Source: Pelodictyon luteolum DSM 273 (GTDB lineage: Bacteria > Bacteroidota > Chlorobiia > Chlorobiales > Chlorobiaceae). Taken from it: a stretch of 64,000 nt of DNA. The translations under genes were made by a program, and so were the position numbers. A model generated the notes under the pieces. That model made no database searches and had not been told where the DNA came from. It saw nothing but the letters and a program-made list of their open reading frames with translations. The stretch covers positions 373,001-437,000 of the forward strand of contig NC_007512.1 in NCBI RefSeq assembly GCF_000012485.1. The letters run 5' to 3'. Positions 7,381 to 49,738 of the stretch are shown here, piece by piece. Each line of letters starts with the position of its first letter. Positions within the stretch are counted from its first letter, which is position 1.

Positions 7381-7652
7381 GGGAGGTCGGGATGAATGGT
7401 TCAAAAACCTAAATATACACCGACAGCCTGTTCCCTCCAATTCAGGCATAGGGTGGCTTTTACCGAGTCCTGTTGATGCAAGCTATCGCCGCGGGTTTGG
7501 TTTCATGGAGTTCGCGGGCACGCTGTCATTGAGGCTTCATTGTCAGAAATGTGAGGAAATGTGAGGATTGAGGGCTACGGCCTTTGCATATGTTTTGTGA
7601 TATTAATATTAACTTTACAGTAGTCTGAATTTTCCCGTTTCCCCCTTTGTTC
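7381..7652. other. Intergenic region upstream of giant protein 1
   Basis: This 272-base region is shared by the divergent thyX gene and giant gene 1. The part nearest the giant gene (about 7570-7640) is AT-rich and contains the palindrome ATATTAATAT, a plausible promoter area, but I see no strong sigma-70 consensus. No ribosome site precedes the start at 7653. The 5' side holds a short repeat (GTGAGGAAATGTGAGGATTG around 7550-7570) of unknown meaning. Confidence 0.35.
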
Positions 7653-22600: not shown

Positions 22601-25600
22601 TGATGCTGGTGCAACAAAGGCATGGAGCCTGCAGGGTACTTCGAGTACGACGTACGGCACGATGGCCATCAACGCATCAACGGGAGTATGGTCATACACG
22701 CTCAATAACGAGCTCACAGCCACACAAGCCCTGAAAGAAGGCGATACGGTGACCGAGGCCTACACCGCCCGGGTCACGGACGACCAGGGAGCCTATGTCG
22801 ACCAGACCGTCACGATCACCATAACAGGCACGAACGACGTGCCGACGGTAACGAGCTTAGCAGCAGCGCATGCAGGAGCAGTCGTTGAAGCCGGTCATCA
22901 GGACAACGGCACTGTCGTTGCGGGCACCGCTACAGCCACTGGAACGCTGGCGGCAAGTGATGTGGACACCGGCGCAACCAAAATCTGGAGCCTGCAGGGT
23001 ACCCCGAGCGAGACCTACGGCACGATGGCGATCAACAGTTCGACAGGCGTCTGGACCTACACGCTGGACAACACCCTCATGGCAACACAGGCCCTGAAAG
23101 AAGGCGAGAGTGCAACCCAAACCTACACGGCCCGGGTCACGGACGACCAGGGAGCCTATGTCGACCAGGCCGTCACGATCACCATCACCGGCACGAACGA
23201 CGCGCCGGTTCTCCAGGCCGTAACGGCGGGAAGCATTACCGAAACAGTTCAGTCCTCCGCCACGGCAGATCAGAATCTCAGTGGTACTCTGACTGCTGCT
23301 GATGTTGATGGTGGTGATTCGAAGACCTACGGGATCAACGACGGCAGTGGCAATGCGATAGCTGCATCGGACGGAGTCGTCTCGAAGGCCGGCACCTACG
23401 GAACCCTGACCCTCGATACCTCTACCGGCGTGTATGCATACGCGAAGAATGCTTCCGCTATTGAAGCGCTCGACGACGGTGAAAGTGGAAGCGACAGCTT
23501 CACCGTCGTCGTGACCGACAGCGCCGGGGCAGTATCATCGAAGACCTACACGGTTTCGGTAACTGGTCACGACGACGCTCCGACGCTTTCGGCGGCGACA
23601 TCGGGGAGCATAACGGAAACAGGCCTCGCCACAGCCGTTACTGAAACCGGTCTGACGGGAACGCTCAGCGGTTCTGATGTTGATACTGAGATACTGACCT
23701 ACGGTATTGACGGTGGTATTGAGCTGACAGGGACTTATGCAGGAATCGTCACGAAAACGGGAACCTATGGCACCTTAAGCCTCAACCGATCCAGCGGAGC
23801 TTATCAATACGATAGGAATGCCGCAAGTGTAGAAGCCCTTGCCGCATCAGAATCTGTCAGCGATGTGTTCACACTGACAGTTACGGATGGCGACGGCGTC
23901 CTTGTGAGGCAGACTTATACGGTAAACCTTACTGGTGCTGACGATGTCCCGTTGATAACGGTTGTTGATGTCGACGCCAGCATCACCGAGGCCTCCACGC
24001 TTTTGGATTCGGGGTCGGTGACCTTCACGGATGTTGACTTGAGTGATCGACCGGTGGCGACGGGGGCAAAGAGTTCCATTAGTGCAGTGAAGTCCGGCGG
24101 CACGACTGCGCTGGTGTTGAGTGCTGCGCAGGAGTCCGCGCTTGCCGCAGGGTTCAGTGTGACGAACGCCGACGGCAACACCAATAACGGCACGGTGAAC
24201 TGGGGGTATGTGATTGCCGAGAGCACACTTGACTTCCTCGGGGCCGGTGAGAAGGTGACGGCGGTCTTCACCATTACGGTGAACGACCAGCACGGAGGGA
24301 CGGCAACGCAGGATGTGATGGTGCGCATCACGGGGGCGAACGATTCGCCGTCGATCAGTCTTGGTGGCAGTGACAGTGCTTCAGAAGGCCTGAGTGAGTC
24401 CAATGCCGGTCTTTCGAAAAGCGGAACCCTGACGCTGTCGGACAAGGATGCGACCGATACGGTGACGCCGAGTGTCTATGCCGTATCGACGGAGGGCATT
24501 ACGAACGGCATTTCAAATACTGCGTTCAAGGCGATGCTCTCGGTCGATGACGGGGCAGTCATAGCCAGCGGGGCGACAGGCGGTACGATTCACTGGGTAT
24601 TCAACAGCGGATCAGAAGCGTTCAATTACCTCGCCGAGGGAGAAACGCTGAAGCTGACCTATACTCTGCGCGCTACCGACAGTCAGTCCTCTGTCGTTGA
24701 CCAGGCGGTCGTCATCACCATAACCGGAACCAACGATACTCCGGTGGTCGATGCCACTGATGTGAGCGGCGGCGTGACTGAGCTGGTTACAGCAGATGGC
24801 AACCTGACGGACTCCGGCACGATAGGCTTTACGGACACCGATCTCTCCGACACTCACAGCCTCGGCGCAGTGACGGCTTCAGGCGGTGCGATTGGTGCGC
24901 TTACGGTGACGAAGACGGTCGATACGACGGGCATCGGTACCGGTGGCAGTATGACCTGGAACTACAGCGTTGCAGCCTCTGCGGTAGAGTACCTTGCTGC
25001 AGGAGAGACAAAAGTTGAATCGTTCACCTTTGCCGTGCAGGATGCTCATGGCGGGAGCGTGACGCGGACGGTGGAGGTGACCCTCACCGGAACGAACGAC
25101 GCTCCGGTGATAACGGCAGGGCCTGACACGGCATCGCTTTCTGAAATAGACGCCGGGCTGTCGACGAGCGGTTCGCTCACGGTATCGGATGTCGACGTGA
25201 CGGACGTGGTAACGGCCACGCGGACGCTCTCGGTCGGGGGCACTTCGAACCGCTCCGATAGCGCTGCCCCGGGCGACGCCGCGCTGCTCGGGATGTTCAC
25301 GGTGACGCCCGGCACCATTATCGACGGATTGCACACAAGCAGCACGCTCGGCTGGTCTTTCGACTCGGGCACCGGGACGTTCGACTACCTTCAGAACGGT
25401 GAGACGCTGGTGCTGACCTACACGGTAAGCGCGACGGACGACAACGGTACGGCGCTCTCCGACAGCGAAACGGTGACCATCACCATTACCGGTACGAATG
25501 ACACCCCGGTGATTACGAACGGCAATGATACGTCTGCACTTACCGAAACCGATGCCGCCTTGACAGCATCGGGGACGATGGCGGTGATGGACCTTGATAC

Positions 25601-27756: not shown

Positions 27757-29586
27757 ATGATGGTTAACCCCCTGCGGCATGCCCCGATGGCCTTTCTGGC
27801 CGCCGTGCTGCTTTTGCTGTCCTCATGCGCGGTCGTGCCGAAGCCCCTGGACTCCGAGTCCAACAGGGCGCGCCTTTCAGCAGGGCTTGCGGAAACATAT
27901 GCCCGACAGGAGCAGCTGCAGCGTTCTGTGACGCTCGAGGAGGCGATGGCCCGCGCCATCAGCTACAACCTTGACAGCCGGGTGAGGCTGATGCAGGAGG
28001 CGCTTGCGCATGGTGAGCTCGCTCGTGCCCGCTGGGACATGCTGCCGAAACTGGCTGCAAGTGCGGGGTATTCGCACCGCTCGGACTATCCTGCGTCAAG
28101 CAGCGCAAGTTACAGTGATGGTGAGGTCGGTGCAGTGACGCTCTCGATGTCGACCTCGCAGGACCGGGATCTACGGACGGCGGATCTCAGCGTCGCATGG
28201 AACGTGCTGGATTTCGGTGTCAGCTACTTTCAGGCAAAACAGCAGGCCGACCGGCAGCTGATATGGCGGGAGCGTCGCCGCAAGTCGGTCCACAACCTGA
28301 TGCAGGAGGTGCGGCTGGCGTATTGGCAGGCGGCGGGTGCCGCCCGGCTCCGCTCTCGTGCCATGCGTGTTCTTGATGCATCGGAGCGTGAGCTCGGGCG
28401 CATCCGCCGGCAGCGGGAGCTGCGTTTGACCTCAGGTCTTGAGAGCCTGCGGCAGGAAAAAGCGCTGCTTGAGGTCATGCGCCAGATGCAGGCGATTCTC
28501 GATGAGTTCGCTGTTGCAAAGCCGAGGCTTGCCTCATTGATGGGGCTTCCTCCGGGATCTGCCTTTGAGCTTGCCCTCGTGGATCTACCCGACGACGGGC
28601 TGCCGGGCATGGATGTGCCGGTGGAGGAGATGGAGCGCGTTGCGCTCAAGTACCGTCCGGAGCTGCGCGAGGCGGCTTATGAGGAGCGCATATCGGCGCT
28701 CGAGGCCCGCAAGGCTATCGCCCGGCTGCTTCCGGGCATTGAACTGAGTGGATCAAAGGAATACAACAGTAACAGTTTTGCGGCCTATCCCAACTGGTGG
28801 GGGGGTGGCATGACGGTGAGCTGGAACCTGATGAACATCCCTTCGGCACCGCAGCGCATCAAGACGGCCAAGGCCGCAAAAACGGTTGCGGAGGCCAACA
28901 GCCTCGCGCTTGCGATGGCCGTGCTCTCGCAGGTATACGTGAGCCGCCAGCAGCAGATCGCCGCCATCAGGCAGTATTCACTGGCACGGCAGCAGTGGGA
29001 CGTCGACGAGCAGATGCTCTGGTATGTCGAGGCCGGCCATTCGCTCAATGCTCTCAGTGACCGGGAGCTGATACAGACCGAGGCCAATGCGGTGAAGGCC
29101 CAGCTTGGCCTCTATGTGGCCTATGCATCAATGGAGCGGGCACAGGGGAACGTCTATGCTTCGCTCGGGCTCGATCCGTTCGTCGACATCGACGCCCGTA
29201 TGCCGGTCGACAAGCTTGCCGACACCATAAAAAGGGCCTCTGACGCATGGCAGGCGGGTAAGTTCAGCTGGATCAACGAGGAGATGGGCCGAATCGAGCA
29301 GTCGAGGGCGCTCTATCATGAAGGCATGGAACTGTTCCGGCGTGAAGAGTACGCAAGGGCCGATTCCACCTTCAGTGCACTGAGGGCGCTTGACCCGTTC
29401 AACGAGTCTGCACGGCAGTACGCCGAGGTACTCATTCCTGCCCGGGTAAAGCGGATAGACAAGGCGCAGTCGCTGCGACATAAAGCAATGGAGGCGCAAA
29501 AACTGCAGCAGGAAGGCAAAGTCGAAGAGGCCAAGGCGCTCTGGACAGAAATCATCACGGAATCAAAAGAGGAGTTGAGTAAATGA
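27757..29586 (+). CDS. TolC-type outer-membrane efflux lipoprotein with TPR-like C-terminal tail
   Basis: The 609-residue protein has a lipoprotein signal (AAVLLLLSSC, acylated Cys24) and then two OEP repeats of the TolC family (about 55-270 and 285-480), which trimerise into an outer-membrane channel with a periplasmic alpha-barrel. TolC proteins normally end near there. This one continues for about 110 residues with TPR-like helices (ALYHEGMELFRREEYARADS..., then LRHKAMEAQKLQQEGKVEEA) that match the alternating units of the next gene's product. Its stop overlaps the start of that gene (ATGA), indicating translational coupling. It follows giant 1 by 67 bases on the same strand. The gap contains a T7 run just before the ATG and no recognisable ribosome site. 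Inference: an outer-membrane exit channel for this locus, with the tail docking to the TPR protein. Confidence 0.9.
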   Translation: MMVNPLRHAPMAFLAAVLLLLSSCAVVPKPLDSESNRARLSAGLAETYARQEQLQRSVTLEEAMARAISYNLDSRVRLMQEALAHGELARARWDMLPKLAASAGYSHRSDYPASSSASYSDGEVGAVTLSMSTSQDRDLRTADLSVAWNVLDFGVSYFQAKQQADRQLIWRERRRKSVHNLMQEVRLAYWQAAGAARLRSRAMRVLDASERELGRIRRQRELRLTSGLESLRQEKALLEVMRQMQAILDEFAVAKPRLASLMGLPPGSAFELALVDLPDDGLPGMDVPVEEMERVALKYRPELREAAYEERISALEARKAIARLLPGIELSGSKEYNSNSFAAYPNWWGGGMTVSWNLMNIPSAPQRIKTAKAAKTVAEANSLALAMAVLSQVYVSRQQQIAAIRQYSLARQQWDVDEQMLWYVEAGHSLNALSDRELIQTEANAVKAQLGLYVAYASMERAQGNVYASLGLDPFVDIDARMPVDKLADTIKRASDAWQAGKFSWINEEMGRIEQSRALYHEGMELFRREEYARADSTFSALRALDPFNESARQYAEVLIPARVKRIDKAQSLRHKAMEAQKLQQEGKVEEAKALWTEIITESKEELSK

Positions 29587-32500
29587 AATCCATCGTTGCC
29601 AGAGCAGCCCTCGGCGCCTGTATCCTTGCCCTGCCGGCAGGACTTGATGCGGGTACTGATGCACCGCTGAAGACCGTCGGCGATGCCGAACTGACGCTTC
29701 GCGAACTGATCGAGCAGGCCGAAGAGAACATCAGCGAAGCCGATCTGCTTATAGAGGCCCGCAAACAGGCCGAACGTAACGCAGAGAGTGCCGCCAAGGT
29801 CCGCGAGGCATATGAGAGGGGCAGCCGCCTTGCCGAGTCGGGCGATCTGGCCGGAGCAAGGGCTGAATGGAGGCGGGCTCTGGAAATCGCCCGAAACCCT
29901 GAAATGAAGAGCTACATCGTCGAGCAGACGCGGAAGGCAGAGCAGAGGGCTGAGGCGCAGCGGGCCGAACGGGAGCAGCGTGTCGCGGCCCTTAACGGGG
30001 AGGCGACGGCACTCTTCGGACGCGGTCTGCTTGATGAATCGCAGGCCAGGTTCCAGGAATCGCTCGCCCTTGAGGCATCGAACCCTGAAGCGAAACGATA
30101 CATCGATACCCTCATTCCTGCACGCCGAAACGAACTTCGCCAGCAGGCAGCCCGTGAGGAGCAGGCGAGGGTTGCTCTGGAAAAAGGCCGGGCCCTTTCG
30201 TCTGGCGGTGATTTCAACGCTGCCCTCACCAGGTGGAGGGAAGCATTGGCGCTTACATCTGACGTGGAGCTTGCCGCAACCATAAACAACGAAATACAGC
30301 TTGCCGAAGGCAAGGTTTCCAAGGCTGCGGGGCTTTTGTCGGAAGGAGCGGTGCAGTTTGATGCAGGCAGTCTCCAGGCTGCCGAAGAGAAGTTCCGGGC
30401 GGCGCTTGCAGTTGATCCGATGCAGGTGGCCGCCACGGACTACCTGGAAGTGAAGATTCCTGCAAGGAAGGTGGAGCTGCAGCGTATTGCCGAAGCTGAA
30501 GCCGGGGCCAGAGTGATCTTTGAAAAGGGCAACAAGCTGTTTGCCGCCGGTGACACCGATGGTGCCAAGGCGGCGTGGCGGGAAGCGGAAGCTGCAACCC
30601 GTGATCCCGAACTGAAGGCTGCCGTGGTGGCCCAGTTCCGTAAGGCAGAGGCGCAGGAAGCTGCTGAGCGCGCCGCTGCCGAGGCCCGTGTAGCTGCCCT
30701 CGTCCGTGAGGGCGAGAGTCTTTTCCAGAGCGGCCGTCTTGAGGAGGCAGAGGCGAAGTTCCGCGAGGTGATTGCCCTTGATCGGTCGGACCGGGTTGCA
30801 ACCCAATACCTTTCCTCAAGCATTCCTGACCGGAAAGCGCAGCTTGAAAAGCAGAGAGAGGAGGAGGCAGAGGCCAGAGCGGCTATTGAGAGGGGCAACA
30901 AACTCTATGCCGGCGGCAACCTCGACGGTGCACAGGCGGTATGGCGCGAGGCTCTTTCCCTGACCCGGAACCCCGAACTGAAGTCGGCCATCGCCCTGCA
31001 GTCGCGCAGGGCGGAAGAGCAGGCCGCCAGAGACCGTGCTGCACTGAAGGCACGCATCGACAGCCTCAGTGCTGAAGGCGTAGCTCTTTTCAATGCGGAC
31101 CGTCTCGACGAGGCGGCATTGAAGTTCCGCGGCGTGCTTGCGCTCGACCCGTCCCACTGGTCCTCCCTGCAGTCCATTGATTCCGGCATCCCAAAGCGTA
31201 GAAAAGAGCTGGAGCGGATCGCAGTCGTCGAAGAACAGGCCGCCGGAGTAGCGCTGCGCGGAGACGCTCTCCTGAAGGCTGGAGACCTGGAAGGGGCGAA
31301 GTCCGCTTACCTTGAAGCCGCCGGCATCGCCGAAAAGGCGGAGAGCAAGGCCTCGATGACCCTGAAAGCCGACCAGATCACCCTCCGTCAGGAGCGCGAA
31401 GCTGAAGAGCTGAGGGCCCGCATTGCCGCAATGGCAACGGAAGGCGAATCGCTCTTCAATGCAGACCGCCTCGACGAATCTACAGCGAAGTTCAGGGAAC
31501 TGCTTACCCTCGACGCCACGAACCGCACTGCAACCACTTACATCAACGACACCATTCCTGCCCGCAAAGCAGAACTCGAGCGCCGGGCGGCTGTTGCAAA
31601 ACAGGCCCGGGCCTCCTATGAGCGTGGTACATCTCTTGCTGCCGCAGGTGACCTCAGGGGAGCTGTCGGGGCATGGAACGAAGCACTCGCAGCAGCTGAA
31701 GACCCTGATCTCACTGCAGCAATCAATACCGGTCTTGCCGGTGCGAAGGAAAAGCTCGCCAGGGCAGAGGAACTCACCCTGGAGGGTACGGCTTTGTTCC
31801 AGTCGGGCAATGTTGACGGTTCAGAAGCGACGTTCCGCCAGGCGCTCGCACTTGATCCCATGAACCGCGGCGCCATGGACTATCTGGAGGTGCGGCTTCC
31901 CGTGCGCAGGGCGGAACTCCAGCGGCAGCGGGAGGCCGAAGAGCTGAGGGGCCGGATTGCCGCAACGCTGGCAGAAGGCGAATCGCTTTTCAATACCGAC
32001 CGCCTCGACGAATCTACAGCGAAGTTCAAGGAGTTGCTTGCCCTCGACGCCACGAACCGCACGGCGACCGGCTATATCAACGATACCATTCCCGCCAGAA
32101 AAAAAGAACTGCAGCGCATCGCCGCCGTTGAGCAGCGGGTGAAAGAGACCGGCGTTCGCGGAGACGGCCTCCTGAAGGCTGGAGACCTGGAAGGGGCGAA
32201 GGCCGCTTACCTTGAAGCCGCCGGCATCGCCGAAAAGGCGGAGAGCAAGGCCTCGATGACTCAGAAAGCAAGTCAGATCACCCTCCGTCAGGAGCGCGAA
32301 GCTGAAGAGCTGAGGGCCCGCATTGCCGCAATGGCAACGGAAGGCGAATCGCTCTTCAATGCCGACCGCCTCGACGAATCAGCGGCGAAGTTCAGTGAAC
32401 TGCTCGCCCTCGACGCCACGAACCGCACGGCGACCGGCTATATCAATGATACCATTCCCGCCCGCAAAGCAGAACTCGAGCACCGGGCAGCTGTTGCAGA

Positions 32501-35288
32501 ACAGGCCCGTGCCTCCTATGAGCGGGGTAGTGCGCTTGCCGCAGCAGGTGACCTCAGGGGAGCTGTCGGGGCATGGAACGAAGCACTCGCCGCAGCTGAA
32601 GACCCTAAACTCACGGCAGCAATCAAGACCGGTCTTGCCGGTGCGAAGGAAAAGCTCGCCAGGGCAGAGGCGCTCAGCCAAGAGGGTACGGCCTTGTTCC
32701 AGTCGGGCAATGTCGACGGTTCAGAAGCGAAGTTCCGCTCAGCTCTTATCATTGATCCCATGAACCGCGGCGCCATGGACTATCTGGAGGTACGGCTTCC
32801 CGCGCGCAGGGCGGAACTCCAGCGGCAGCGGGAGGCCGAAGAGCTGAGGGTCCGGATTGCCGCAACGCTGGCGGAAGGCGAATCGCTCTTCAATGCCGAC
32901 CGCCTCGACGAATCTACAGCGAAGTTCAGGGAACTGCTTGCCCTCGACGCCACGAACCGCACGGCGACCGGCTATATCAACGATACCATTCCCGCCCGCA
33001 AAGCGGAACTAGAGCGCCGGGCAGCTGTTGCAAAACAGGCCCGGGCCTCCTATGAGCGGGGTACATCTCTTGCTGCCGCAGGGGACCTCAGGGGAGCTGT
33101 CGGGGCATGGAACGAAGCACTCGCCGCAGCTGAAGACCCTGAACTCACTGCAGCAATCAATACCGGTCTTGCCGGTGCGAAGGAAAAGCTCGCCAAGGCA
33201 GAGGAGCTCACCCTGGAGGGTACGGCCTTGTTCCAGTCGGGCAATGTCGACGGTTCAGAAGCGAAGTTCCGCTCGGCTCTTATCCTTGATCCCATGAACC
33301 CTGTTGCCATGGATTACAGGGATGCGCAGATTCCTCTGCGCAGGGAGGAACTGCGTCGCCAGATCGAAGCCGAGGCGCAGGCTGCAGCAGCTTTCAAGAG
33401 CGGCAACACCATGTTCGCTGCAGGCGACCTCAACGGTGCGGAAGTGGCATGGCGCAAGGCTCTTTCGTTGACCCGCAACCCTGAGCTGCAGGCGGCCATT
33501 GCCCTGCAGTCCCGCAAGGCCGAGGAACAGGCCGCTGCCGAGCGCGCAGCTCTTGCTGCCCGCATTGAAGCCCTCGGCCGTGAGGCCCGTCTGCTGCTCG
33601 CTGCCGACCAGCTAGATGAAGCCGATGCCAGGTATCGTGAACTGCTTGCTCTGGACCCCGCACGTCCGGATGCGCTTCTGGCCCTAGAAACAGGAATTCC
33701 TCAGCGCAGGGCGGAACTCAAGCGGCAGCGTGAAGCTGAAGAACTGAGGGCCCGCATCGCCGCAATATCGGCGGAAGGCGAATCGCTCTTCAACGCCGAC
33801 CGCCTCGACGAATCTACAGCGAAGTTCAGTGAACTGCTCGCCCTCGACGCCACGAACCGCACGGCGACCGGCTATATCAATGATACCATTCCCGCCCGCA
33901 AAGCAGAACTCGAGCGTCGGGCAGCTGTTGCAGAACAGGCCCGTGCCTCCTATGAGCGGGGTAGTGCGCTTGCCGCAGCAGGTGACCTCAGGGGAGCTGT
34001 CGGGGCATGGAACGAAGCACTCGCCGCAGCTGAAGACCCTGAACTCACTGCAGCAATCAATACCGGTCTTGCCGGTGCGAAGGAAAAGCTCGCTAGGGCA
34101 GAGGAGCTCACTCTGGAGGGTACGGCCTTGTTCCAGTCTGGAAACGTCGACGGTTCAGAAACGACGTTCCGCCAGGTGCTTGCACTTGACCCCATGAACC
34201 GGGGCGCCATGGACTATCTGGAGGTACAGCTTCCCGCGCGCAGGGCAGAGCTGCTGCGCCAGCAGCGTGAAGCTGAACATCAGGCCCGGATCGCCGCAAT
34301 ATCGGCGGAAGGCGAATCGCTCTTCAATGCCGACCGCCTCGGTGAATCTGCAGCGAAGTTCCGGGAACTGCTTGCCCTCGACGCCACGAACCGCACGGCG
34401 ACCGGCTATATCAATGATGCCATTCCTGCCCGGAGGGTTGAGCTGCAGCGTCGTGCTGCAGTGGCACGCCAGGCGCAGGCCGGCTATGAAAACGGACGTG
34501 CCCGGTATGCGGCCGGTGATCTTGCCGGTGCAATCGGGGCATGGGAAGGGGCTCTCCGTATTGCCGAGGATGCCAAGCTCACCGCCACCATCAACGCCGA
34601 CCTCCAGAAGGCGAGGGAAAAAAGCTCACGGATCAGGGCGCTGCATGACGAGTCCCTTTCCCTGTTCGCCAGCGACAGTCTTGACGGCTCCGAAGCGAAG
34701 TTCAGGGAACTGCTTGCCATTGATGCTTCGAATGCCGTGGCCAAAGATCATCTTTCCTCAAGAATTCCCGCCCGCAGAGCTGAGCTTCTTCGCCAGCGCG
34801 GTGTAGCTTCCAGTGTGGAAGCGGCTCTTGGGGAAGGCAACCGACTCTACGCTTCAGGCAATGTTCAGGGTGCGATAGCACGCTGGACAGAGGGGCTCGG
34901 GGTTGCTGAAACTCCAGGCCAGAAAGCTTCACTTGCCGGTCAGGTCCGTATGGCAGATGAGCGCCTTCGTCAGGAAGCGGCAGCCCGCCAGATCCGGGTG
35001 TCGGAGCTCTATGCGGAAGGTGCGACCCTGTTCGGCAGCGACAGGCTCGACGAGGCTGCGGCGAAGTTCCAGGAGCTCCTGCAGCTTGATGGATCGCATC
35101 CTGAAGCCCGCTCGTACGCCGGCGTGAAAATCCCCGCCCGCAAAGCCGAACTGCAGCGGCTGGCTGAACTCGAGCAGAGGGCGAAGGATGCTTATGAGCG
35201 GGGCAACAGGCTCTACGCTGCCGGCGATTACGATGCAGCGAAAGCTGCATGGCAGGAGGCGCTCAACATTACCGCTACACAGCGCTGA
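29583..35288 (+). CDS. Very large periplasmic TPR-like repeat protein
   Basis: The 1,901-residue product has a Sec signal peptide (MKSIVARAALGACILALPAG). The rest is almost entirely alternating helical-hairpin motifs of two kinds. I count 17 A units (type EGESLFNADRLDESTAKFRELLALD) and 14 B units (type YERGNKLYAAGDLDGAKAAWREAL), joined by charged Ala/Glu/Arg-rich coiled-coil-like linkers. An A+B pair is about 122 residues; some A units follow each other directly. Similar TPR proteins serve as protein-binding scaffolds. The start overlaps the stop of the TolC lipoprotein gene, and the adaptor gene follows after 14 bases, so it sits in the middle of an operon. Internal copies are nearly identical in DNA, so unit number may vary among strains. 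The function is inferred: a periplasmic scaffold or chaperone for the export complex. Confidence 0.85.
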   Translation: MKSIVARAALGACILALPAGLDAGTDAPLKTVGDAELTLRELIEQAEENISEADLLIEARKQAERNAESAAKVREAYERGSRLAESGDLAGARAEWRRALEIARNPEMKSYIVEQTRKAEQRAEAQRAEREQRVAALNGEATALFGRGLLDESQARFQESLALEASNPEAKRYIDTLIPARRNELRQQAAREEQARVALEKGRALSSGGDFNAALTRWREALALTSDVELAATINNEIQLAEGKVSKAAGLLSEGAVQFDAGSLQAAEEKFRAALAVDPMQVAATDYLEVKIPARKVELQRIAEAEAGARVIFEKGNKLFAAGDTDGAKAAWREAEAATRDPELKAAVVAQFRKAEAQEAAERAAAEARVAALVREGESLFQSGRLEEAEAKFREVIALDRSDRVATQYLSSSIPDRKAQLEKQREEEAEARAAIERGNKLYAGGNLDGAQAVWREALSLTRNPELKSAIALQSRRAEEQAARDRAALKARIDSLSAEGVALFNADRLDEAALKFRGVLALDPSHWSSLQSIDSGIPKRRKELERIAVVEEQAAGVALRGDALLKAGDLEGAKSAYLEAAGIAEKAESKASMTLKADQITLRQEREAEELRARIAAMATEGESLFNADRLDESTAKFRELLTLDATNRTATTYINDTIPARKAELERRAAVAKQARASYERGTSLAAAGDLRGAVGAWNEALAAAEDPDLTAAINTGLAGAKEKLARAEELTLEGTALFQSGNVDGSEATFRQALALDPMNRGAMDYLEVRLPVRRAELQRQREAEELRGRIAATLAEGESLFNTDRLDESTAKFKELLALDATNRTATGYINDTIPARKKELQRIAAVEQRVKETGVRGDGLLKAGDLEGAKAAYLEAAGIAEKAESKASMTQKASQITLRQEREAEELRARIAAMATEGESLFNADRLDESAAKFSELLALDATNRTATGYINDTIPARKAELEHRAAVAEQARASYERGSALAAAGDLRGAVGAWNEALAAAEDPKLTAAIKTGLAGAKEKLARAEALSQEGTALFQSGNVDGSEAKFRSALIIDPMNRGAMDYLEVRLPARRAELQRQREAEELRVRIAATLAEGESLFNADRLDESTAKFRELLALDATNRTATGYINDTIPARKAELERRAAVAKQARASYERGTSLAAAGDLRGAVGAWNEALAAAEDPELTAAINTGLAGAKEKLAKAEELTLEGTALFQSGNVDGSEAKFRSALILDPMNPVAMDYRDAQIPLRREELRRQIEAEAQAAAAFKSGNTMFAAGDLNGAEVAWRKALSLTRNPELQAAIALQSRKAEEQAAAERAALAARIEALGREARLLLAADQLDEADARYRELLALDPARPDALLALETGIPQRRAELKRQREAEELRARIAAISAEGESLFNADRLDESTAKFSELLALDATNRTATGYINDTIPARKAELERRAAVAEQARASYERGSALAAAGDLRGAVGAWNEALAAAEDPELTAAINTGLAGAKEKLARAEELTLEGTALFQSGNVDGSETTFRQVLALDPMNRGAMDYLEVQLPARRAELLRQQREAEHQARIAAISAEGESLFNADRLGESAAKFRELLALDATNRTATGYINDAIPARRVELQRRAAVARQAQAGYENGRARYAAGDLAGAIGAWEGALRIAEDAKLTATINADLQKAREKSSRIRALHDESLSLFASDSLDGSEAKFRELLAIDASNAVAKDHLSSRIPARRAELLRQRGVASSVEAALGEGNRLYASGNVQGAIARWTEGLGVAETPGQKASLAGQVRMADERLRQEAAARQIRVSELYAEGATLFGSDRLDEAAAKFQELLQLDGSHPEARSYAGVKIPARKAELQRLAELEQRAKDAYERGNRLYAAGDYDAAKAAWQEALNITATQR
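31261..33300 (+). repeat. Long near-identical internal repeats in the TPR gene (900-bp period)
   Basis: Segments around 31261-31480 recur at 32161-32380 with an exact 900-base offset and very few differences. Further near-copies of the same A/B modules occur at about 32860-33290 and 33760-34210. The repeats are in frame (300 codons), consistent with expansion by unequal recombination. Confidence 0.85.
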
Positions 35289-35302
35289 GGAGGCGGTATA
35301 AC

Positions 35303-36127
35303 ATGAACCACAATATGTCCTGCACAGTGTCCATACAGAGAGGTTTAGGGGGGGCTTTCGCACGCATGTTCGCTTTTCTCTGTATGCTTGCCGTTGCGGC
35401 ACCACATACCGCTTTTGGCGAAAAGCCGGTTCCGGCGGCCTTGAAGGCGCCGGCACGCGTTCCAGCCGGAGATGTTCTGATCCAGGTGGTCGCGCGTGAG
35501 CACGTGACGATTGCTGCCGGCATGGACGGACGCATCGAGCGCCTGATGGTTCGCGAGGGGGACCGGTTCACGAAAGGCATGCTGCTGCTTGCTTTTGACT
35601 GCTCGAGCGAGCAGGGGATGCTTGAGCGTTCGAAAGCTTCCCGGGAGCTCGCCGTGAAAAACGCTGAAATCCAGGAAAAGCTCTTTGCCATGGGCGCTTC
35701 GAGCGATCTGGAGCTCTCAACGGCCCGGGCAGAGCGTGGAAAGATGGCGGCTGAGCAGAAGATAGCCGCTGCCGCGGTGCGTAAGTGCACCGTCCTGGCA
35801 CCGTTTTCCGGCGGGGTGTCGGAACTGAAGGTGCAGCGATTCCAGACTGTGAAGAAGGGCGATCCTCTCATGCGGCTCGTCAATACCGGCGACCTTGAGA
35901 TCCAGATGTTCGTTCCCTCGAAATGGCTGGTCTGGCTAAAGCCCGGCAGGCGCTTCACAGTGCATGTCGACGAACTCGACCGTGATTATCAGGCCGAAGT
36001 CCGTGCCACCGGCACCTGGATCGACGCTGTAAGCCAGTCGGTTGCCGTGTTTTCCCGCTTCAGCCGGCAGGCTCCCGAGCTGCTGCCGGGCATGAGCGGC
36101 CACGCCATCCTCGCCTCTCCCAAGTAG
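35303..36127 (+). CDS. HlyD/RND-type periplasmic adaptor protein
   Basis: The start at ATG 35303 is chosen because GAGGAGG stands just upstream; an earlier in-frame ATG at 35249 lies inside the TPR gene. The product is 274 residues with a signal sequence (FAFLCMLAVAAPHTAFG). A lipoyl/barrel-sandwich half motif (VTIAAGMDGRIERLMVREGD) is followed by a short alpha-helical hairpin, the second lipoyl half (CTVLAPFSGGVSELKVQRFQ) and a beta-barrel with the usual GMSGHAIL end. Such adaptors link an inner-membrane transporter to a TolC channel. It is small for the family. It is part of the operon with the TPR gene upstream and the GAF-like adaptor 10 bases downstream. Confidence 0.9.
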   Translation: MNHNMSCTVSIQRGLGGAFARMFAFLCMLAVAAPHTAFGEKPVPAALKAPARVPAGDVLIQVVAREHVTIAAGMDGRIERLMVREGDRFTKGMLLLAFDCSSEQGMLERSKASRELAVKNAEIQEKLFAMGASSDLELSTARAERGKMAAEQKIAAAAVRKCTVLAPFSGGVSELKVQRFQTVKKGDPLMRLVNTGDLEIQMFVPSKWLVWLKPGRRFTVHVDELDRDYQAEVRATGTWIDAVSQSVAVFSRFSRQAPELLPGMSGHAILASPK

Positions 36128-36137
36128 CAGACAAGCC

Positions 36138-37511
36138 ATGGCAGATCCCAGACTCAGCGCATTCAGCTCCATCCTTGAGCTTGAGCGCATGGCCCGAAAG
36201 GCCGAAGACGCCGCTGCGCTGCGATACGTGCTGGTCAACGAGACCATGACCCTTGTTCCGTATCGACAGGCAGCGTTCTGGGAACTGGGTTCCGGTCGCC
36301 TGAGGGCGCTCTCCGGCATGAGTCAGCCGGACCGCAATGCCCCTTTCGTCGCATGGCTTGAACGATTGATGGCCGAGCTGCACCGGATGGCGGTCGAACG
36401 CCGCTCCGGTGAGGAGTATCCTCCGCAGACGCTGACGATGGCCGATGTGTCAGAAGAGATTGCTTTGGACTGGGGCGAATGGCTTCCGGCCCATGCTATC
36501 TCGGTTCCGATCGGTTCGGCAAACGGCGTGCTTCAGGGTATCCTGCTGCTTGCCCGTGCCACGCCCTTTGCCGGGCATGAACCGGCGCTCCTTGCCGTGC
36601 TCGCAGAGGCTTACGGTCACGCGCTGCAGGCTCTGGAGCCGAGGAACCGCCCCGAGCTTTCCTGGGCGTTCCTCAAGAGGAAGGCTGAATCCATCCTCAA
36701 GGACAACAAACAGGTGCGCTGGATTGCCGGAGGGGTGCTGCTGCTGCTCGTCTTCCCGGTCAGGATCTCTTCGCTTGCCCCTGCCGAAGTGGAGTCGCGC
36801 GACCCATGGGTGGTGCGCTCTCCGCTGGACGGCGTGGTGCGCAGCATCGACGTGCCTCCCAACAGCACGGTGGAACGGGGCCGGCAGCTGGTCACGATGG
36901 AGCGTACGGTGCTGGAGAACGCGCTTGCCGTTACCCGCCAGGAACGCATGGTCTCGGAAGCCGAGTACCGAAGGGCGGCCCAGGAGGCTGTGTACGACCG
37001 CGCCAACATGTCTGAAATGTCGGTTCTCAGTGCCAAGGTAGGTCGGCTTCGGGCGGAGGAGGCCTACGCTTCCCAGCAGCTCCAGCGTACCCTCATCACG
37101 GCCGAGCATTCCGGAGTTGCTGTTTACGGGGATCCCGACGACTGGAACGGCCGGCCGGTCCGTACCGGTGAACGGATCATGACCATCATGGATCCAGAGA
37201 AGGCCAAGCTTGCCATCTGGCTCGGCGTCGACGACGCCATCTCGCTCGAGCCGGGTGCCGAGGTGGTTTTCTTCCTCTCCTCGAACCCGCTCTGGCCCGT
37301 TCGCGCAACCCTTCAGTACGCATCCTACTCCCCCGAGATCCGAGCTGACGGCACCCTGGCTTACGGCCTTGAAGCGAAGTTCAACGACAAAACCGACCTG
37401 CCGAGGGTCGGGCTGAAAGGCACTGCGAAGATCTACGGTCGCCGGGTGGCCCTTTCCTACTACCTCTTACGGCGGCCGATTGCCGCAATGCGAAGGTGGC
37501 TGGGGATATGA
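36138..37511 (+). CDS. Membrane-anchored HlyD-type adaptor with cytoplasmic GAF-like domain
   Basis: The 457 residues split in two. The N-terminal about 190 look like a GAF-type sensor domain (AAALRYVLVNETMTLVPYRQA, ISVPIGSANGVLQGILLLAR). One transmembrane helix follows (about 196-210, WIAGGVLLLLVFPV), then a periplasmic HlyD-like region with lipoyl half motif (WVVRSPLDGVVRSIDVPPNS), a helical hairpin, and a beta-barrel. Adaptors with a cytoplasmic ligand-sensing-type domain are unusual. The product could couple a cytoplasmic signal to assembly of the export complex. Its stop codon overlaps the start of the next gene (ATGA), so the two are probably translated together. Domain naming for the N-terminus rests on pattern only. 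Confidence 0.82.
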   Translation: MADPRLSAFSSILELERMARKAEDAAALRYVLVNETMTLVPYRQAAFWELGSGRLRALSGMSQPDRNAPFVAWLERLMAELHRMAVERRSGEEYPPQTLTMADVSEEIALDWGEWLPAHAISVPIGSANGVLQGILLLARATPFAGHEPALLAVLAEAYGHALQALEPRNRPELSWAFLKRKAESILKDNKQVRWIAGGVLLLLVFPVRISSLAPAEVESRDPWVVRSPLDGVVRSIDVPPNSTVERGRQLVTMERTVLENALAVTRQERMVSEAEYRRAAQEAVYDRANMSEMSVLSAKVGRLRAEEAYASQQLQRTLITAEHSGVAVYGDPDDWNGRPVRTGERIMTIMDPEKAKLAIWLGVDDAISLEPGAEVVFFLSSNPLWPVRATLQYASYSPEIRADGTLAYGLEAKFNDKTDLPRVGLKGTAKIYGRRVALSYYLLRRPIAAMRRWLGI

Positions 37512-38932
37512 GCGCTGCCACCGGGCAGAAGCCGCCGCTTCCGCCGCTGCGCGAAGACCTGTCGCTGCATCCCGGCCCTTCGGCCCGTGACGGCTCGCCT
37601 GCTTGGGTGCTGCACGATCCCGGTCGCAACCGCTTTTTCCAGATTGACGCTCTCGGCTTCGAAATCCTCTCGCGATGGCAGATGGGAGATGCCGATGCCA
37701 TTGCGGGCTCGATTTCCGATGAGACGACCATAGCGGCCGATGCGTCAGATGTTCTTGAAATGGCACGGTTCCTTGTCGTTCACGAACTGGTGCGGGTCAT
37801 GGGTGAGGCGGGCCGCGAGAGGCTGAAGGCTGCGACTTCGAAGGGACGCTGGCCGAAACTGAAGTGGCTGCTCCACAACTACCTCTACTTTCGCTTTCAT
37901 CTCTTCAACCCCGAGCGATTCCTTTCGAAGACCTATCCCTACATCCGCTGGATCTATACGCCCATAGCGGCGAAGGTCATGCTGTTCATCGCCCTGGTTG
38001 CCCTGTATATGGCCGGCAGGCAGTGGGACGCCTTCACCCACAGCCTGAGCTATTTCTTCTCATTCCAGGGTGTCGTCCTTTTCGGGCTTGCCATGTTTTT
38101 CGCCAAGGTGGTCCATGAGCTTGGTCACGGTTATACCGCTTACCGGTACGGCTGCAGGGTGTCGAGCATGGGGGTGGTTTTCATAGTCCTGACGCCGGTC
38201 TTTTATACCGATGCGAGTGAAGCCTGGCTGCTCACATCCCGCCGGAAGCGCATTGCCATCGGTGCTGCGGGCATCGTGGCCGAGCTCGGCCTTGCCGTGC
38301 TTGCCACCTTCCTCTGGAGCTTCCTGCCTGAGGGTGCAATGCGCAGCGCAGCGCTGCTCCTTGCCACCACATCCTGGGTCCATACCCTGCTGGTGAACAT
38401 GATGCCATATATGCGCTTTGACGGCTACTACCTGTTCTCGGACCTGCTCGGCATCCCGAACCTCTTCGAGCGCAGCTTCGCGATGGGGCGGTGGTGGGTG
38501 CGCGAGCGTTTGTTCGGACTTGGCGATCCGCCTCCGGAGGAGTGGGACCGGCGGACCGAAAAGCTGCTCGTCGCCTTCGCCCTCGGCGTCTGGGTCTACC
38601 GGTTCTTCCTCTTCATCGGCATCGCGTTCCTCGTCTACCACTTCACCTTCAAGCTGCTCGGCATCGTGCTGCTCACCGTCGAGCTCGGCTGGTTCGTCTT
38701 CCTGCCCATATTCGGCGAGCTCAAAAGTTGGTACGCCATGCGCGATCGGTTCATCTGGAACCGTAACAGCCGCATCTCCGCCGCACTGGCCGGCCTGTTC
38801 CTGATCGGTTTCGTGCTCCCGCTCAGCTTCTCTGTCGACGCTCCTGCACTCCTCCTTCCCCGTGAGCATGCGGTGTTCTATGCCCCCGAGGATGCACGGG
38901 TCCATACGCTCCGGGTCCGTGAGGGTGAGTAG
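37508..38932 (+). CDS. PqqD-M50 metalloprotease-HlyD fusion, 5' part up to in-frame amber stop
   Basis: The start at ATG 37508 overlaps the upstream stop. Residues about 20-100 form a PqqD-like domain (WVLHDPGRNRFFQIDALGFE ... ILSRWQMGD). Next is a polytopic membrane domain of the M50/site-2-protease family with the zinc site HELGH (His203, Glu204, His207) and the distal Asp305 in FDGYY, so the active site looks complete. Near residue 455 the first HlyD lipoyl half begins (REHAVFYAPEDARVHTLRVR) and stops at TAG 38930-38932, exactly inside the conserved EGE-x-VEKGEQL hairpin. The frame continues unbroken afterwards for 234 codons to 39634. So the intact gene would encode about 708 residues, and the break is a single-codon nonsense change (one base from CAG or AAG). 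Either a pseudogene, a suppressed amber, or a sequencing error. Confidence 0.88.
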   Translation: MSAATGQKPPLPPLREDLSLHPGPSARDGSPAWVLHDPGRNRFFQIDALGFEILSRWQMGDADAIAGSISDETTIAADASDVLEMARFLVVHELVRVMGEAGRERLKAATSKGRWPKLKWLLHNYLYFRFHLFNPERFLSKTYPYIRWIYTPIAAKVMLFIALVALYMAGRQWDAFTHSLSYFFSFQGVVLFGLAMFFAKVVHELGHGYTAYRYGCRVSSMGVVFIVLTPVFYTDASEAWLLTSRRKRIAIGAAGIVAELGLAVLATFLWSFLPEGAMRSAALLLATTSWVHTLLVNMMPYMRFDGYYLFSDLLGIPNLFERSFAMGRWWVRERLFGLGDPPPEEWDRRTEKLLVAFALGVWVYRFFLFIGIAFLVYHFTFKLLGIVLLTVELGWFVFLPIFGELKSWYAMRDRFIWNRNSRISAALAGLFLIGFVLPLSFSVDAPALLLPREHAVFYAPEDARVHTLRVREGE

Positions 38933-39634
38933 GTAGAGAAGGGCGAGCAGCTCTTCATCCTTGATTCCCCGCAGCTGGATTTCAGGCTGGGGCAGGCCGA
39001 GCGGCAGGTTGACGTGATGCGATGGGCGCTCATGGCTTCGGCGGCAGATGAGCGCCAGTACTCCCGGCGGCTCGTCACCCTGCGTGAACTCGAGGCTGCG
39101 GCGAAGGAACTTGAGGGTTACCGCCGGCAGGCGCTTCGGCTGAGGGCGATTGCACCATTTTCAGGGCGGATAGACCGGGTGATGAAAGAGCTGCGTCCCG
39201 GCCAGTGGGTCGGTGGCGGCAGCCCGCTCGTAAGCGTTGTCGGCACGGCAGGCTCATCCGGCGAAGGATACGTCTTCGAATCCGATGTCGAGCGGGTTAG
39301 GCCCGGTGCACGCTGCACCTTTTATCCCGACAACTGCGAAATGCCGGTGGTGCGTGGCAGGGTCAGGCAGGTCGAGCGCGCCGGTTCCCCGGTACTGCAG
39401 CATCCCGAACTCGCTTCCATTTACCGGGGGAGCATTCCCTCAAGAATCTCGCGCAGCGGGGAGGTTATTCCTGAAAAGGCAGTGTACCGGTTCTTCTGGA
39501 CGCCCGACATGAAGGGCGGGGAAGAGCCTCGCCATATCCGCGGCACGCTCGTCATCCGGAGCAGTCCCGAAAGCATGTTCTGGCGGCTCTGGCGGACGGT
39601 GGCTGGGGTCCTCATCCGCGAGACGGGGTTCTAA
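38933..39634 (+). pseudogene. HlyD-domain 3' part of the PqqD-M50-HlyD gene, beyond the amber codon
   Basis: Directly after the TAG the same frame reads VEKGEQLFILDSPQLDFRLG, then a helical hairpin, the second lipoyl half (RLRAIAPFSGRIDRVMKEL) and the beta-barrel region, ending at TAA 39634. This is the natural C-terminal half of the adaptor domain. If translated separately it could restart at the GTG at 39014 (about 206 aa), which would lack half of the lipoyl hairpin and any membrane anchor or signal peptide. It is therefore best viewed as one gene with the preceding entry. No other damage is visible, so the interruption is recent or tolerated. Confidence 0.8.
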
Positions 39635-41572: not shown

Positions 41573-44500
41573 GTGAAGAGAGTCCTCAGAAAATCCGGCA
41601 CAAGCCTCCTTCTCTTTTTCGCCATCTTCAAGGGCGTTCCGGGTACCGTGTCCGCGGAAGAGCCCTTGCGGCCATCTCCTTTTCCTCACTCTTCGTCCCT
41701 GTTCTTAGCCCCTTCATTCCTGACGAAGCTCGGTGGACCTGAAAAGCCCTCCCGAGAACCTTTGCAGCCACAGCCCTTACCTTCAGCATCGAATCCTGAT
41801 GGCCGGGGATCGGGGTTTCTCAATGCTTCCGTACAGTCCGGCCCGCCGCCCGGCTCAAGTTCCGCCATGAGTGAACCCCACCGGGGGAGTTTCCTGCTCG
41901 GCTCCGGTCCGGCTGCACCCTCTCCGGTGCCTGCCGGCTTGAGGGTAAAATCGAGGCCGATACCGGGACCGACACAGAGCCCGTCACTGCAGCCGGTTGC
42001 CATCAGGCCGGTCACGGCCACAACCCTTTTTCCCGCTCCTCCCCGGAAGCCTGTTGAAGAGGCTGTACCGGTACTGCAACCCGGCACTCGTACTGAGAAG
42101 GGCAGCGGAAGTTTTCTTCTTGGGTCTCCTTCTCCATCGCAAGCGGCGGAGGCCCCACGCCTTGACCCCCGATTTGAGTCGGCACCCGTCACCGCTCCCC
42201 CGAAGCTGGCGGACATCGCAGCATCGCCCGTATCGGGCACCACCGCTGCTGCCGTCTCCACGCCTTCAGAACAGCCCATCGTGAGCTCTGGAAGAACCGC
42301 GCGGGGGAGTTTCCTTATTGAGCCCGTGCCCCGGGACCCCGTCCCTGCTTTCCCGCCTGCCATGATCCCTTCCGCTGCGCCCCCTGTTCCTGCTCCCGCA
42401 GAGAGTGTCGTCGAGGTGCCCGGCAGTGTACTTCCTGACGCTAAGCCCTTGAAGCCGGTTGTCGTGAATCAGCCGACGAAAGAACCTGTCGTACAGGCAC
42501 TTCCCAAGTCCGATGTGGCAGTCAGGAAAGAGTCTCTGCACAGGAGCTTCCTGCTCGATTCGCCTCCTTCGACACCTGCAGTCGTTGAGGCTGAGCCGTT
42601 GCCCCCTGTTGCGAAGAGGGTTGCTGCAATGCAGCCTTCTCTGCCGGCTCCGCCCCCGATCGTGCCCGCTCCCGCGGCTCCTGCAGCGCTGGAACCAGCT
42701 GTGGTTGAGTCTCTGCCTGCCGCCGTTCTGGCGGTCCCGTTGCCTTCGGCTGATGCGCCCTCCGTGGACGGAGGCGCAAAGAAAACTGTTCCTGCTGCTG
42801 TCGCCACAGCGACAGCGCCCGCTCTGGCAGCGGCTCCTCTGCCGGATGAGCCGGTCCCGGCAGACCCTGGACCCTCAGCTGCTTCTGCTGCTTCCCCAGA
42901 GCGTGCCCCGGCGGCTGCTTCTCTCCCTGCCCCTCTTCTTCCGGAGCCTGTCGCAGCTGAACCGGAGGCTGTCGTTCTGGAAGAGGGCGAGCCACTCCCT
43001 GAAGCGATGCCCGGGCCTGTTGGCGCGCCTCTCCCCGAACCGGTCGCCGGGGTTGCGATTCCTGATGCCGAAAGTGAAACGAGGGTGGACGGTGAACCCC
43101 CGAAACCCCAGCCGTCGGTAGAATCGGTGGCGCTGCCGGAGGAACTCCGGATCGGCGTGGTGCAGGAGCCTCCGTCTGCATTGCAGGAAGCGCCTTCCCG
43201 GGAGATCCTCGTCAAGGACGAATCACTTGCGGAGGAGCCCGGCCCCGAAGCTCCGTCTCCCGAGCCGGCTCCCGCGAGGCCCGGGATGCCCCCGCCGCAT
43301 GACCTTGCCCCCTGGGCCCTTGTCGAGTCAGAGGACGGCGACCTTCCGGTGTTCGATTCAAGCATGCCCGTCATCCGCAACGAGGTGGCGCGCCTGCAGC
43401 TTGAAGAGTGGTCCCGGCATGTGGGTGAGGCTGTCGCCAGGCACCCTTCGGTGCGTGCTGCGGAGTATGCCGAGCAGGAGAGCATCTCTTCAATCGGGGA
43501 AGCAAAGGCTCAGCTCTATCCCCAGGTGTCGCTCGGTCTGAACACCGACCTGCGCCGATCGATCCGTGACGGCAAACCCTATGCGACGGTCTCAGATCTT
43601 CCGATTGACGACGAGGTGCGCCTGAACCCGAACCTGACAGTGCGTCAGCTGGTTTTCGACGGGGGTGCGACCTCGTCGCGGGGAAAAGCCGCTATGGCCC
43701 GCTCTCTGGCGGCACGTGAGCGGCGGGTGTCGACCGAGGAGGGGGTTGCGCTGCGCGCGGTGGCTACGATGATCGAGCTTGCAAAGCTCCAGGAACAGCT
43801 TGAGTTCGCCAGAGAGAACCTGTCCGAGGTGCGCCGGCTGCGCGACATGATCCGCGCGAGAGTTGATGCAGGGCGGGACGCGCCGAGCGAAATGCTTCAG
43901 ATGAACAGCCGGGTCTTCGAGGCTCGCAACGAGGTGGTCCTGCTTGAAGGACGGCGGGCAGATGCTGGTGCCCGCTATGAGGAGGTGTTCGGTGGCACGC
44001 CGGTCGTCCTCGCGTTTCCTGACGTCTTCGCTCCCATCCCGATGAGCATGTCGGGCGGGATGGATGCGGCCCTGCGAAAGAACCCCGACCTTTTGAGCTC
44101 GAAGGCTCTGGTCGATGCGGCTGCCGCGGACTACAAGGCGGCCTGGGGCGCGCTCTACCCCCGCCTTGAGGTGGAGGCCAACCTCACAGTCTACGACGTC
44201 ACGCGCAATGAGAGTGATTATTACGATTCGTTCGTGGGGCTGAAGCTGAGCCACAATATTCTCGACGGCGGTCTGAAAAGCTCAACCAAGGCCCGCACCC
44301 GCAGCCAGATGGAGCGGGCCCGTTCCGAGTACGACAACACCCAGCGTGCAGTCGAACTTGCCCTGAGGCGTGCGTATGCCAACCGTGAGGCGCTGATCCC
44401 GCAGTACAAGGCGCTGCAGGCGCAGCTTGACCACAAGCGGGAAACACAACGTGCCTATGAGGAGCAGTTCCTCGCAGGCCGCAGGCCCCTCAATGACCTG

Positions 44501-44632
44501 GTTGCGGCCCAGCAGCAGGTGATCGATACCGCCATCAGGACCCTCGACTACAAGGCGGAGCTCCACCGCCAGCATTTCGTGATTCTTTCCCTTATCGGTG
44601 AATTGGCGAAGGGAGAGGGGAAGAAGATGTGA
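41573..44632 (+). CDS. TolC-type outer-membrane protein with long proline-rich spacer
   Basis: The 1,019-residue protein starts at a GTG (no ribosome site seen; the start is the least certain part) with a signal peptide (SGTSLLLFFAIFKGVPGTVSA). Residues about 45-600 are a Pro/Ala/Glu-rich, low-complexity spacer. It carries the motif GSFLL or a variant four times (Ser106, Ser180, Ser246, Ser325) and one weaker copy (RGSGFL near 80). Residues about 605-1015 are a full OEP/TolC domain of the type I secretion kind (WSRHVGEAVARHPSVRAAEY, LTVRQLVFDGG, LKLSHNILDGG, GRRPLNDLVAAQQQVID). The spacer is far longer than in ordinary TolC proteins and would sit in the periplasm, where the repeated motif could bind a partner. 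It ends 30 bases from the convergent response-regulator gene. Confidence 0.85.
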   Translation: MKRVLRKSGTSLLLFFAIFKGVPGTVSAEEPLRPSPFPHSSSLFLAPSFLTKLGGPEKPSREPLQPQPLPSASNPDGRGSGFLNASVQSGPPPGSSSAMSEPHRGSFLLGSGPAAPSPVPAGLRVKSRPIPGPTQSPSLQPVAIRPVTATTLFPAPPRKPVEEAVPVLQPGTRTEKGSGSFLLGSPSPSQAAEAPRLDPRFESAPVTAPPKLADIAASPVSGTTAAAVSTPSEQPIVSSGRTARGSFLIEPVPRDPVPAFPPAMIPSAAPPVPAPAESVVEVPGSVLPDAKPLKPVVVNQPTKEPVVQALPKSDVAVRKESLHRSFLLDSPPSTPAVVEAEPLPPVAKRVAAMQPSLPAPPPIVPAPAAPAALEPAVVESLPAAVLAVPLPSADAPSVDGGAKKTVPAAVATATAPALAAAPLPDEPVPADPGPSAASAASPERAPAAASLPAPLLPEPVAAEPEAVVLEEGEPLPEAMPGPVGAPLPEPVAGVAIPDAESETRVDGEPPKPQPSVESVALPEELRIGVVQEPPSALQEAPSREILVKDESLAEEPGPEAPSPEPAPARPGMPPPHDLAPWALVESEDGDLPVFDSSMPVIRNEVARLQLEEWSRHVGEAVARHPSVRAAEYAEQESISSIGEAKAQLYPQVSLGLNTDLRRSIRDGKPYATVSDLPIDDEVRLNPNLTVRQLVFDGGATSSRGKAAMARSLAARERRVSTEEGVALRAVATMIELAKLQEQLEFARENLSEVRRLRDMIRARVDAGRDAPSEMLQMNSRVFEARNEVVLLEGRRADAGARYEEVFGGTPVVLAFPDVFAPIPMSMSGGMDAALRKNPDLLSSKALVDAAAADYKAAWGALYPRLEVEANLTVYDVTRNESDYYDSFVGLKLSHNILDGGLKSSTKARTRSQMERARSEYDNTQRAVELALRRAYANREALIPQYKALQAQLDHKRETQRAYEEQFLAGRRPLNDLVAAQQQVIDTAIRTLDYKAELHRQHFVILSLIGELAKGEGKKM

Positions 44633-49522: not shown

Positions 49523-49738
49523 GAGAACTATTGAGGGTTAAATGGTTGTAGAAGAACACCTTCATCCTCTGGCGAAGGCGTCATGATGCAGTAGCACCAG
49601 AGGAATATAACGCGCCTTGTGTGAATTGCGAGAATATGTGGGTATTTGAGTGTTGTCCTGGTTGCTGCATAATGCTGAAATTGGTATAGAGTTGAAAAAC
49701 CCTTTTTGCGTGGAGTTAACCCCCTGAACTTACCGAAA
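49523..49738. promoter_or_regulatory. Divergent control region between kinase operon and giant 2
   Basis: This 216-base region must hold the promoters for the kinase-kinase-regulator operon (minus) and giant 2 (plus). It contains an inverted repeat with 8-bp arms (TCCTCTGG at 49565-49572, CCAGAGGA at 49597-49604) that could be an operator or transcript stem. I see no strong -35/-10 pair on either strand. No ribosome site precedes the giant 2 start. Confidence 0.4.

Follow-up and report, generated by a model that had tools for sequence, protein, structure and literature searches.

The window, the 64-kb stretch of DNA analysed here in full, lies in a complete bacterial genome of 2,364,842 bases. 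It contains two very large open frames, giant 1 and giant 2, and on the same strand giant 1 is followed by genes for a TolC-type protein, a long repeat protein, two HlyD adaptors and then a protein in which a PqqD-like domain, or RiPP recognition element (RRE), precedes an M50 protease-like domain (the RRE-M50 gene; Table 1). The extra N-terminal domain of the second adaptor has no Pfam match in the window, and in a relative from a class II cluster (the L014 homolog; see below for the classes) it is a GAF domain (E 1.8e-8).

Table 1. Features of the window, with positions counted from its first nucleotide.
Feature	Position	Strand	Basis or remark
Giant 1	7647..27689	+	Single open frame, 6680 codons from TTG, first ATG 7653; LEPR-8K and DUF4347
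LEPRILLDA, class I N-terminal motif	7704..7730	+	Residues 20-28 of giant 1 ORF; NF012209 match
DUF4347 in giant 1	7989..8441	+	PF14252 E 9.4e-50, residues 115-265
GRRALSEQL, C-terminal motif in giant 1	27579..27605	+	Motif search in class I giants
TolC-type outer membrane factor	27757..29586	+	PF02321 E 2.2e-26
Long repeat protein	29583..35288	+	Open frame; TPR-like by eye
HlyD-type periplasmic adaptor 1	35249..36127	+	PF13437 E 8.6e-17; TIGR01730 over cut-off
HlyD-type adaptor 2, extra N-terminal domain	36138..37511	+	PF13437 E 4.9e-10
RRE (PqqD-like) domain	37547..37798	+	Residues 14-97 counted from ATG 37508; predicted fold
M50 site-2-protease-like membrane domain	37850..38827	+	PF02163 E 1.7e-9
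HELGH zinc motif, H203-H207; third ligand D305	38114..38128	+	Homolog alignment
In-frame TAG between M50 and HlyD	38930..38932	+	Intact in relatives
HlyD remainder	38933..39634	+	PF13437 E 2.6e-8; frame is that of M50 ORF
Second TolC-like protein, N-terminal half Pro/Ala-rich	41573..44632	+	Open frame read by eye
Giant 2	49706..64000	+	Residue 44 marks DUF4347; LEPR match absent

Giant 1 belongs to the LEPR-XLL giants (LEPR-8K, NCBIfam NF012209), whose model its residues 17-37 match at 20.2 bits (cut-off 17), and no second LEPR match occurs elsewhere in the genome. The first 110 residues contain no clear signal-peptide or transmembrane stretch (maximum KD19 1.58, with the peak on the motif itself). 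The first-pass annotation had described an N-terminal LEPRILLDA motif without a signal peptide in this protein, and the description holds in both respects.

When the starts of 71 giants are read together, they are conserved only from about -4 to +14 around the L of LEPR, with a stretch rich in lysine and arginine before the motif and a stretch poor in both after it. The search pattern for these giants itself required the E, the R/K and the neighbouring hydrophobic or small positions; the positions free of that constraint show P in 60 of the 71 giants, A before the motif and A, V or T after it, and small residues follow the motif. Two classes of motif may be distinguished, LEPRx[LM][FL]D[AG]A (class I, FDAA or FDGA) and LEPRxL[LFY]S[AG]D (class II, LLSAD). 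The motif as defined here is wider than NF012209, as it includes ALEPRxMFDGAA and ALESRQLFDGA forms, several of which carry no LEPR-XLL label in RefSeq, and it is tied to an exporter (see below). Giant 2 has a DUF4347 domain, but neither an NF012209 match nor a recognisable LEPR motif that would account for an export route of its own. A degenerate motif at its LKSPEVLLYDPG was rejected, this sequence being the first strand of DUF4347.

The M50 reading frame starts at either 37496 (GTG) or 37508 (ATG). Counted from the former, the open frame (37496-38932) stops at a TAG inside the lipoyl half, beyond which the rest of HlyD continues in the unchanged frame. Three Chlorobium relatives have one intact open frame of 724 codons for M50-HlyD. 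The product had earlier been taken as a single M50-HlyD protein; both parts are indeed present, but in the window genome they occupy two open frames split by the TAG, which may have arisen by a recent nonsense mutation or an error of sequencing, or may mark a true division of the gene. The recurrent TAG in another genome, G722, lends no support to recoding, the gene there being broken into several pieces. The 20-kb giant adjoining the split gene in the window retains its open frame. The G722 cluster (L317) is an alphaproteobacterial cluster in decay, in which M50 is in pieces and the giant is cut to 820 codons with its motif kept.

The M50 domain has the features of a site-2 protease, namely the HExxH motif, the third metal ligand and a conserved membrane fold. 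The motif and the third ligand are invariant in 42/42 aligned homologs, and the fold matches RseP (Z 10.9) and SpoIVFB (Z 9.9).

The first-pass annotation had also placed a PqqD-like domain at the N-terminus of the M50 protein, and the predicted structure bears this out. In the AlphaFold model (pLDDT 86.9 for the 474-aa protein and 97.1 for the RRE domain alone), the domain runs E19-23, E32-37, E42-46, H48-55, H62-72, H79-91, a beta3-alpha3 winged helix, and this order of three strands and then three helices is that of the published RRE definition (PMC12710340). Its closest fold in the PDB is TfuB1 with leader (6jx3, Z 10.6), followed by TbiB1 with leader (Z 9.7 for 5v1u, and 9.5) and PqqD (5sxy, Z 8.5); the top four structural matches (6jx3, 5v1u, 5v1v and 5sxy) are all RREs, and three of them were solved with a leader bound. 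By sequence, the window domain scores 14.7 bits against Pfam PqqD (PF05402, E 0.038, cut-off 23.4 bits), and a Pfam scan of the full-length protein gives no PqqD hit at E 1. PqqD is matched by 10/30 homologous domains (best E 7.9e-8), and a profile of the 30 RRE homologs gives weak matches to TfuB1 (E 0.14) and PqqD (E 0.26) in the PDB. The fold assignment is therefore made from the predicted structure, since the sequence alone stays below threshold. On the model, the domain is a genuine PqqD-type RRE fold. Seven predicted membrane helices ahead of the periplasmic HlyD part would place it in the cytoplasm.

RREs hold their recognition sequence in a cleft between alpha3 and beta3, with one known exception in which it forms a strand on beta3 (PMC12710340). 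In the present family R15 and D37 are invariant, and L14, G29, L89 and L94 nearly so, across Chlorobi, Proteobacteria and Nitrospirota. Two variants of the architecture were seen. A 419-aa M50 protein with a PqqD-like N-terminus and no HlyD part is encoded in genome G059, of the same phylum as the window genome (L018, 13067-14326), and is perhaps a peptide-maturation form; in G106, a gammaproteobacterium (L255), an M50 protein has an apparent cyclic-nucleotide-binding domain in the position of the RRE.

Relatives of the RRE-M50 gene were found on at least 590 genome contigs by an alignment-based scan, and on none by a single-protein scan. The motif opens giants beside the gene on plasmid records of E. 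coli, Azospirillum, Methylosinus, Pseudosulfitobacter, Thalassospira, Burkholderia and Cupriavidus, most of which giants are not labelled LEPR-XLL there. A long open frame begins with it in 41/42 genomes that were picked for holding the best RRE-M50 relatives.

The association was assessed in Alphaproteobacteria and Gammaproteobacteria with genomes drawn evenly across each class. The alphaproteobacterial set overlaps its models by one genome, which was excluded from the test, and by a few relatives of the same class; the motif occurs in 17/385 genomes, all 17 of which have an RRE-M50(-HlyD) gene, while among genomes lacking the gene it occurs in 0/361 (Fisher, 3e-23, centre genome left out). 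For the Gammaproteobacteria, where the model included some sequences of the class, the motif is found in 21/321 genomes and the gene in 20 of these 21 (Fisher, 1e-16), one of the positives, G225, being represented by a fragment where a contig ends. The lone exception, G347, has a clear motif (LEKRIVFDAAAV) on a contig that ends a few kilobases further. Of 61 genomes from the group to which the window belongs, three carry the motif, and all three have the gene. The first-pass annotation held that its proposal would fail if genomes with LEPR-XLL giants consistently lacked a PqqD-M50 gene; the reverse is observed in all three groups.

In the opposite direction, about 30 of the 49-51 gammaproteobacterial genomes with the gene have no profile match to the motif, and reading of the neighbouring genes resolved only part of them. 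Where the profile missed a genome with the gene, the neighbouring giant often opens with a variant of the motif (MKLVLEPRYLFDGS, MKLVLEARHLFDGS, ELEARIAFDAAG or LEPRLLLSAD). For G183, G412, G360, G397, G214, G513, G748 and G777, absence of the motif was rejected, because variant motifs adjoin the gene and the profile is under-sensitive. G386 has the gene and no giant nearby. Among complete E. coli genomes the M50 gene occurs in 24/5426, and on enterobacterial plasmids a class I cluster was read (L044, L045; NZ_CP081687) in which an Ig-like giant begins ALESRQLFDGA. We judge it very probable that the motif and the RRE-M50-HlyD gene belong to one export system, although an operon co-inherited with its cargo would yield the same association without direct binding.

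In another explanation RRE and LEPR have only been inherited together, and the RRE is left over from an M50 protease of a RiPP pathway, for instance a daptide-type enzyme. The M50 part is indeed close to the daptide HExxH model NF041824 (5e-48, 164.1 bits, family cut-off 300), and the match in relatives begins within the N-terminal domain. A vestigial domain should have degenerated, however, while this one is conserved over Chlorobi, Proteobacteria and Nitrospirota, and we regard this explanation as very improbable. No short precursor peptide or modifying enzymes were recognised beside the RRE, its neighbours being giants, TolC, HlyD and SecA-like proteins.

The class of the motif follows the phylogeny of the gene. 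In a tree built from 76 RRE-M50 proteins that span several phyla, the class switches once, on a branch with support of 100/100, and the pairs examined show no exception to the match between motif class and RRE-M50 clade. The window protein is a class I member placed next to Microvirga, and two further genomes of its genus belong to class II, so that the agreement goes with the gene rather than the species. Another fifteen Alphaproteobacteria, absent from the tree, agree on class, the sole class II representative among them. G405 has both classes of motif, each with an M50 of its own class. A single inherited change of class implies that reader and cargo stay together, rather than repeated coevolution.

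The two classes also differ in their neighbours. A SecA paralog adjoins the RRE-M50 gene in 14/18 class II and 0/59 class I cases; it matches the DEAD and preprotein cross-linking domains of SecA (PF07517, 1.9e-86; PF01043, 2.4e-25). In L010, L012, L014, L039 and L041 a 680-aa SecA-like ATPase comes directly after the class II RRE-M50-HlyD gene, and in the RefSeq records of L039 and L041 it is named 'prepilin peptidase'. The window genome has the housekeeping SecA and no second one. SecA as the sole reader of LEPR was rejected, because class I has no SecA paralog. HlyD and TolC genes are also part of the clusters, and no ABC transporter was found in those of E. coli, Thalassospira, Methylosinus, Burkholderia, Variovorax and Azospirillum or in that of the window.

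These observations bear on a different explanation, according to which LEPR serves for retention or anchoring, being recognised once translocation is over or else by SecA or the adaptors, and export depends on a C-terminal signal in the manner of ordinary type I secretion. Type I substrates in general have C-terminal signals, and retention modules at the N-terminus are found in LapA-type adhesins. Class I giants do share a C-terminal motif, [GAP][KR]xx[LF][ST]xQ[LF], about 30-40 residues before the end, which is present in 27/41 of them against 6/591 other open frames (0.004 per giant after shuffling), though the pattern was built from the same giants in which it was counted. It was not seen in the three class II giants read, whereas LEPR is common to both classes, and the lack of a SecA paralog in class I and of an ABC transporter in the clusters examined also argues against this explanation, which appears unlikely.

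 The [A]LEPRx[LM][FL][D/S][A/G] motif, after its short basic stretch, would serve as the leader. The RRE at the cytoplasmic N-terminus of RRE-M50-HlyD would bind it, as RREs bind RiPP leaders, and place it at the membrane, where the M50 domain, with its conserved zinc site, may then cut the leader or gate entry. The rest of the giant would be threaded to the cell surface via a HlyD/TolC conduit without an ABC transporter, and one branch may add its own SecA-like ATPase. Binding, cleavage, route and energy source are all inferred. That the RRE reads the motif directly is likely; that M50 cleaves the leader is possible, at somewhat less than an even chance.

Evidence against the RRE as reader comes from variation within class I. 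In partial Mantel tests the motif tracks M50 distance (partial r 0.24, p 0.0025) and not RRE distance (0.05, p 0.24), although the M50 stretch is longer and hence the better clock, which biases the comparison. In co-evolution across genomes, proposed earlier as a check, motif class and RRE-M50 clade match through one inherited change, and within class I the motif goes with M50. This result would fit a site-2 protease that itself reads and cuts the LEPR region, with the RRE binding another part of the machine or acting as a structural cap, and so would the invariant catalytic residues and the small residues after the motif. Besides the bias of the test, the aligned RRE-M50 sequences keep the RRE, with beta2/beta3 among their best-conserved parts, and we consider a reading role for M50 instead of the RRE improbable. 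The earlier proposal that the RRE recognises the giant's N-terminus thus draws on the fold, the near-perfect co-occurrence and the class match, and has the Mantel result against it.

The proposed system resembles several known ones in part. Like the RREs of PqqD, TfuB1, TbiB1 and CteB, the window RRE is a predicted beta3-alpha3 winged helix (structural matches Z 7-11) and would act on an N-terminal leader beside a processing or modifying protein; unlike them, it is fused to M50-HlyD, its cargo would be a giant of thousands of residues, and the clusters read contain no recognised RiPP-modifying enzymes. With the M50 proteases of RiPP pathways (daptide HExxH, YydH/LiaK/EpeP) it shares the membrane protease and the NF041824 match, and EpeP is thought to cleave as well as export its peptide (PMC10885120); the window protein differs in falling under the family cut-off and in its periplasmic HlyD extension and TolC partner. 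TolC and HlyD-type adaptors recall type I secretion, and the leader-guided export proposed here recalls peptidase-containing ABC transporters (PCATs), but RRE-M50-HlyD stands in place of the ABC transporter, together with a SecA-like ATPase in class II. Whether these parts form a distinct and widespread Gram-negative secretion system for giant proteins, in which an RRE reads the LEPR leader and an M50 protease-adaptor works with TolC, with or without a dedicated SecA and without an ABC transporter, we judge to be evenly balanced.

The literature searched contains no description of this system, nor of how LEPR giants without a Sec signal leave the cell. A leader with a dedicated reader would explain the exit of such very large surface proteins. 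If the reading is correct, the reach of RREs goes beyond peptide natural products to the secretion of proteins, and the motif offers a signal that can be tested in hundreds of genomes, some enterobacterial plasmids among them.
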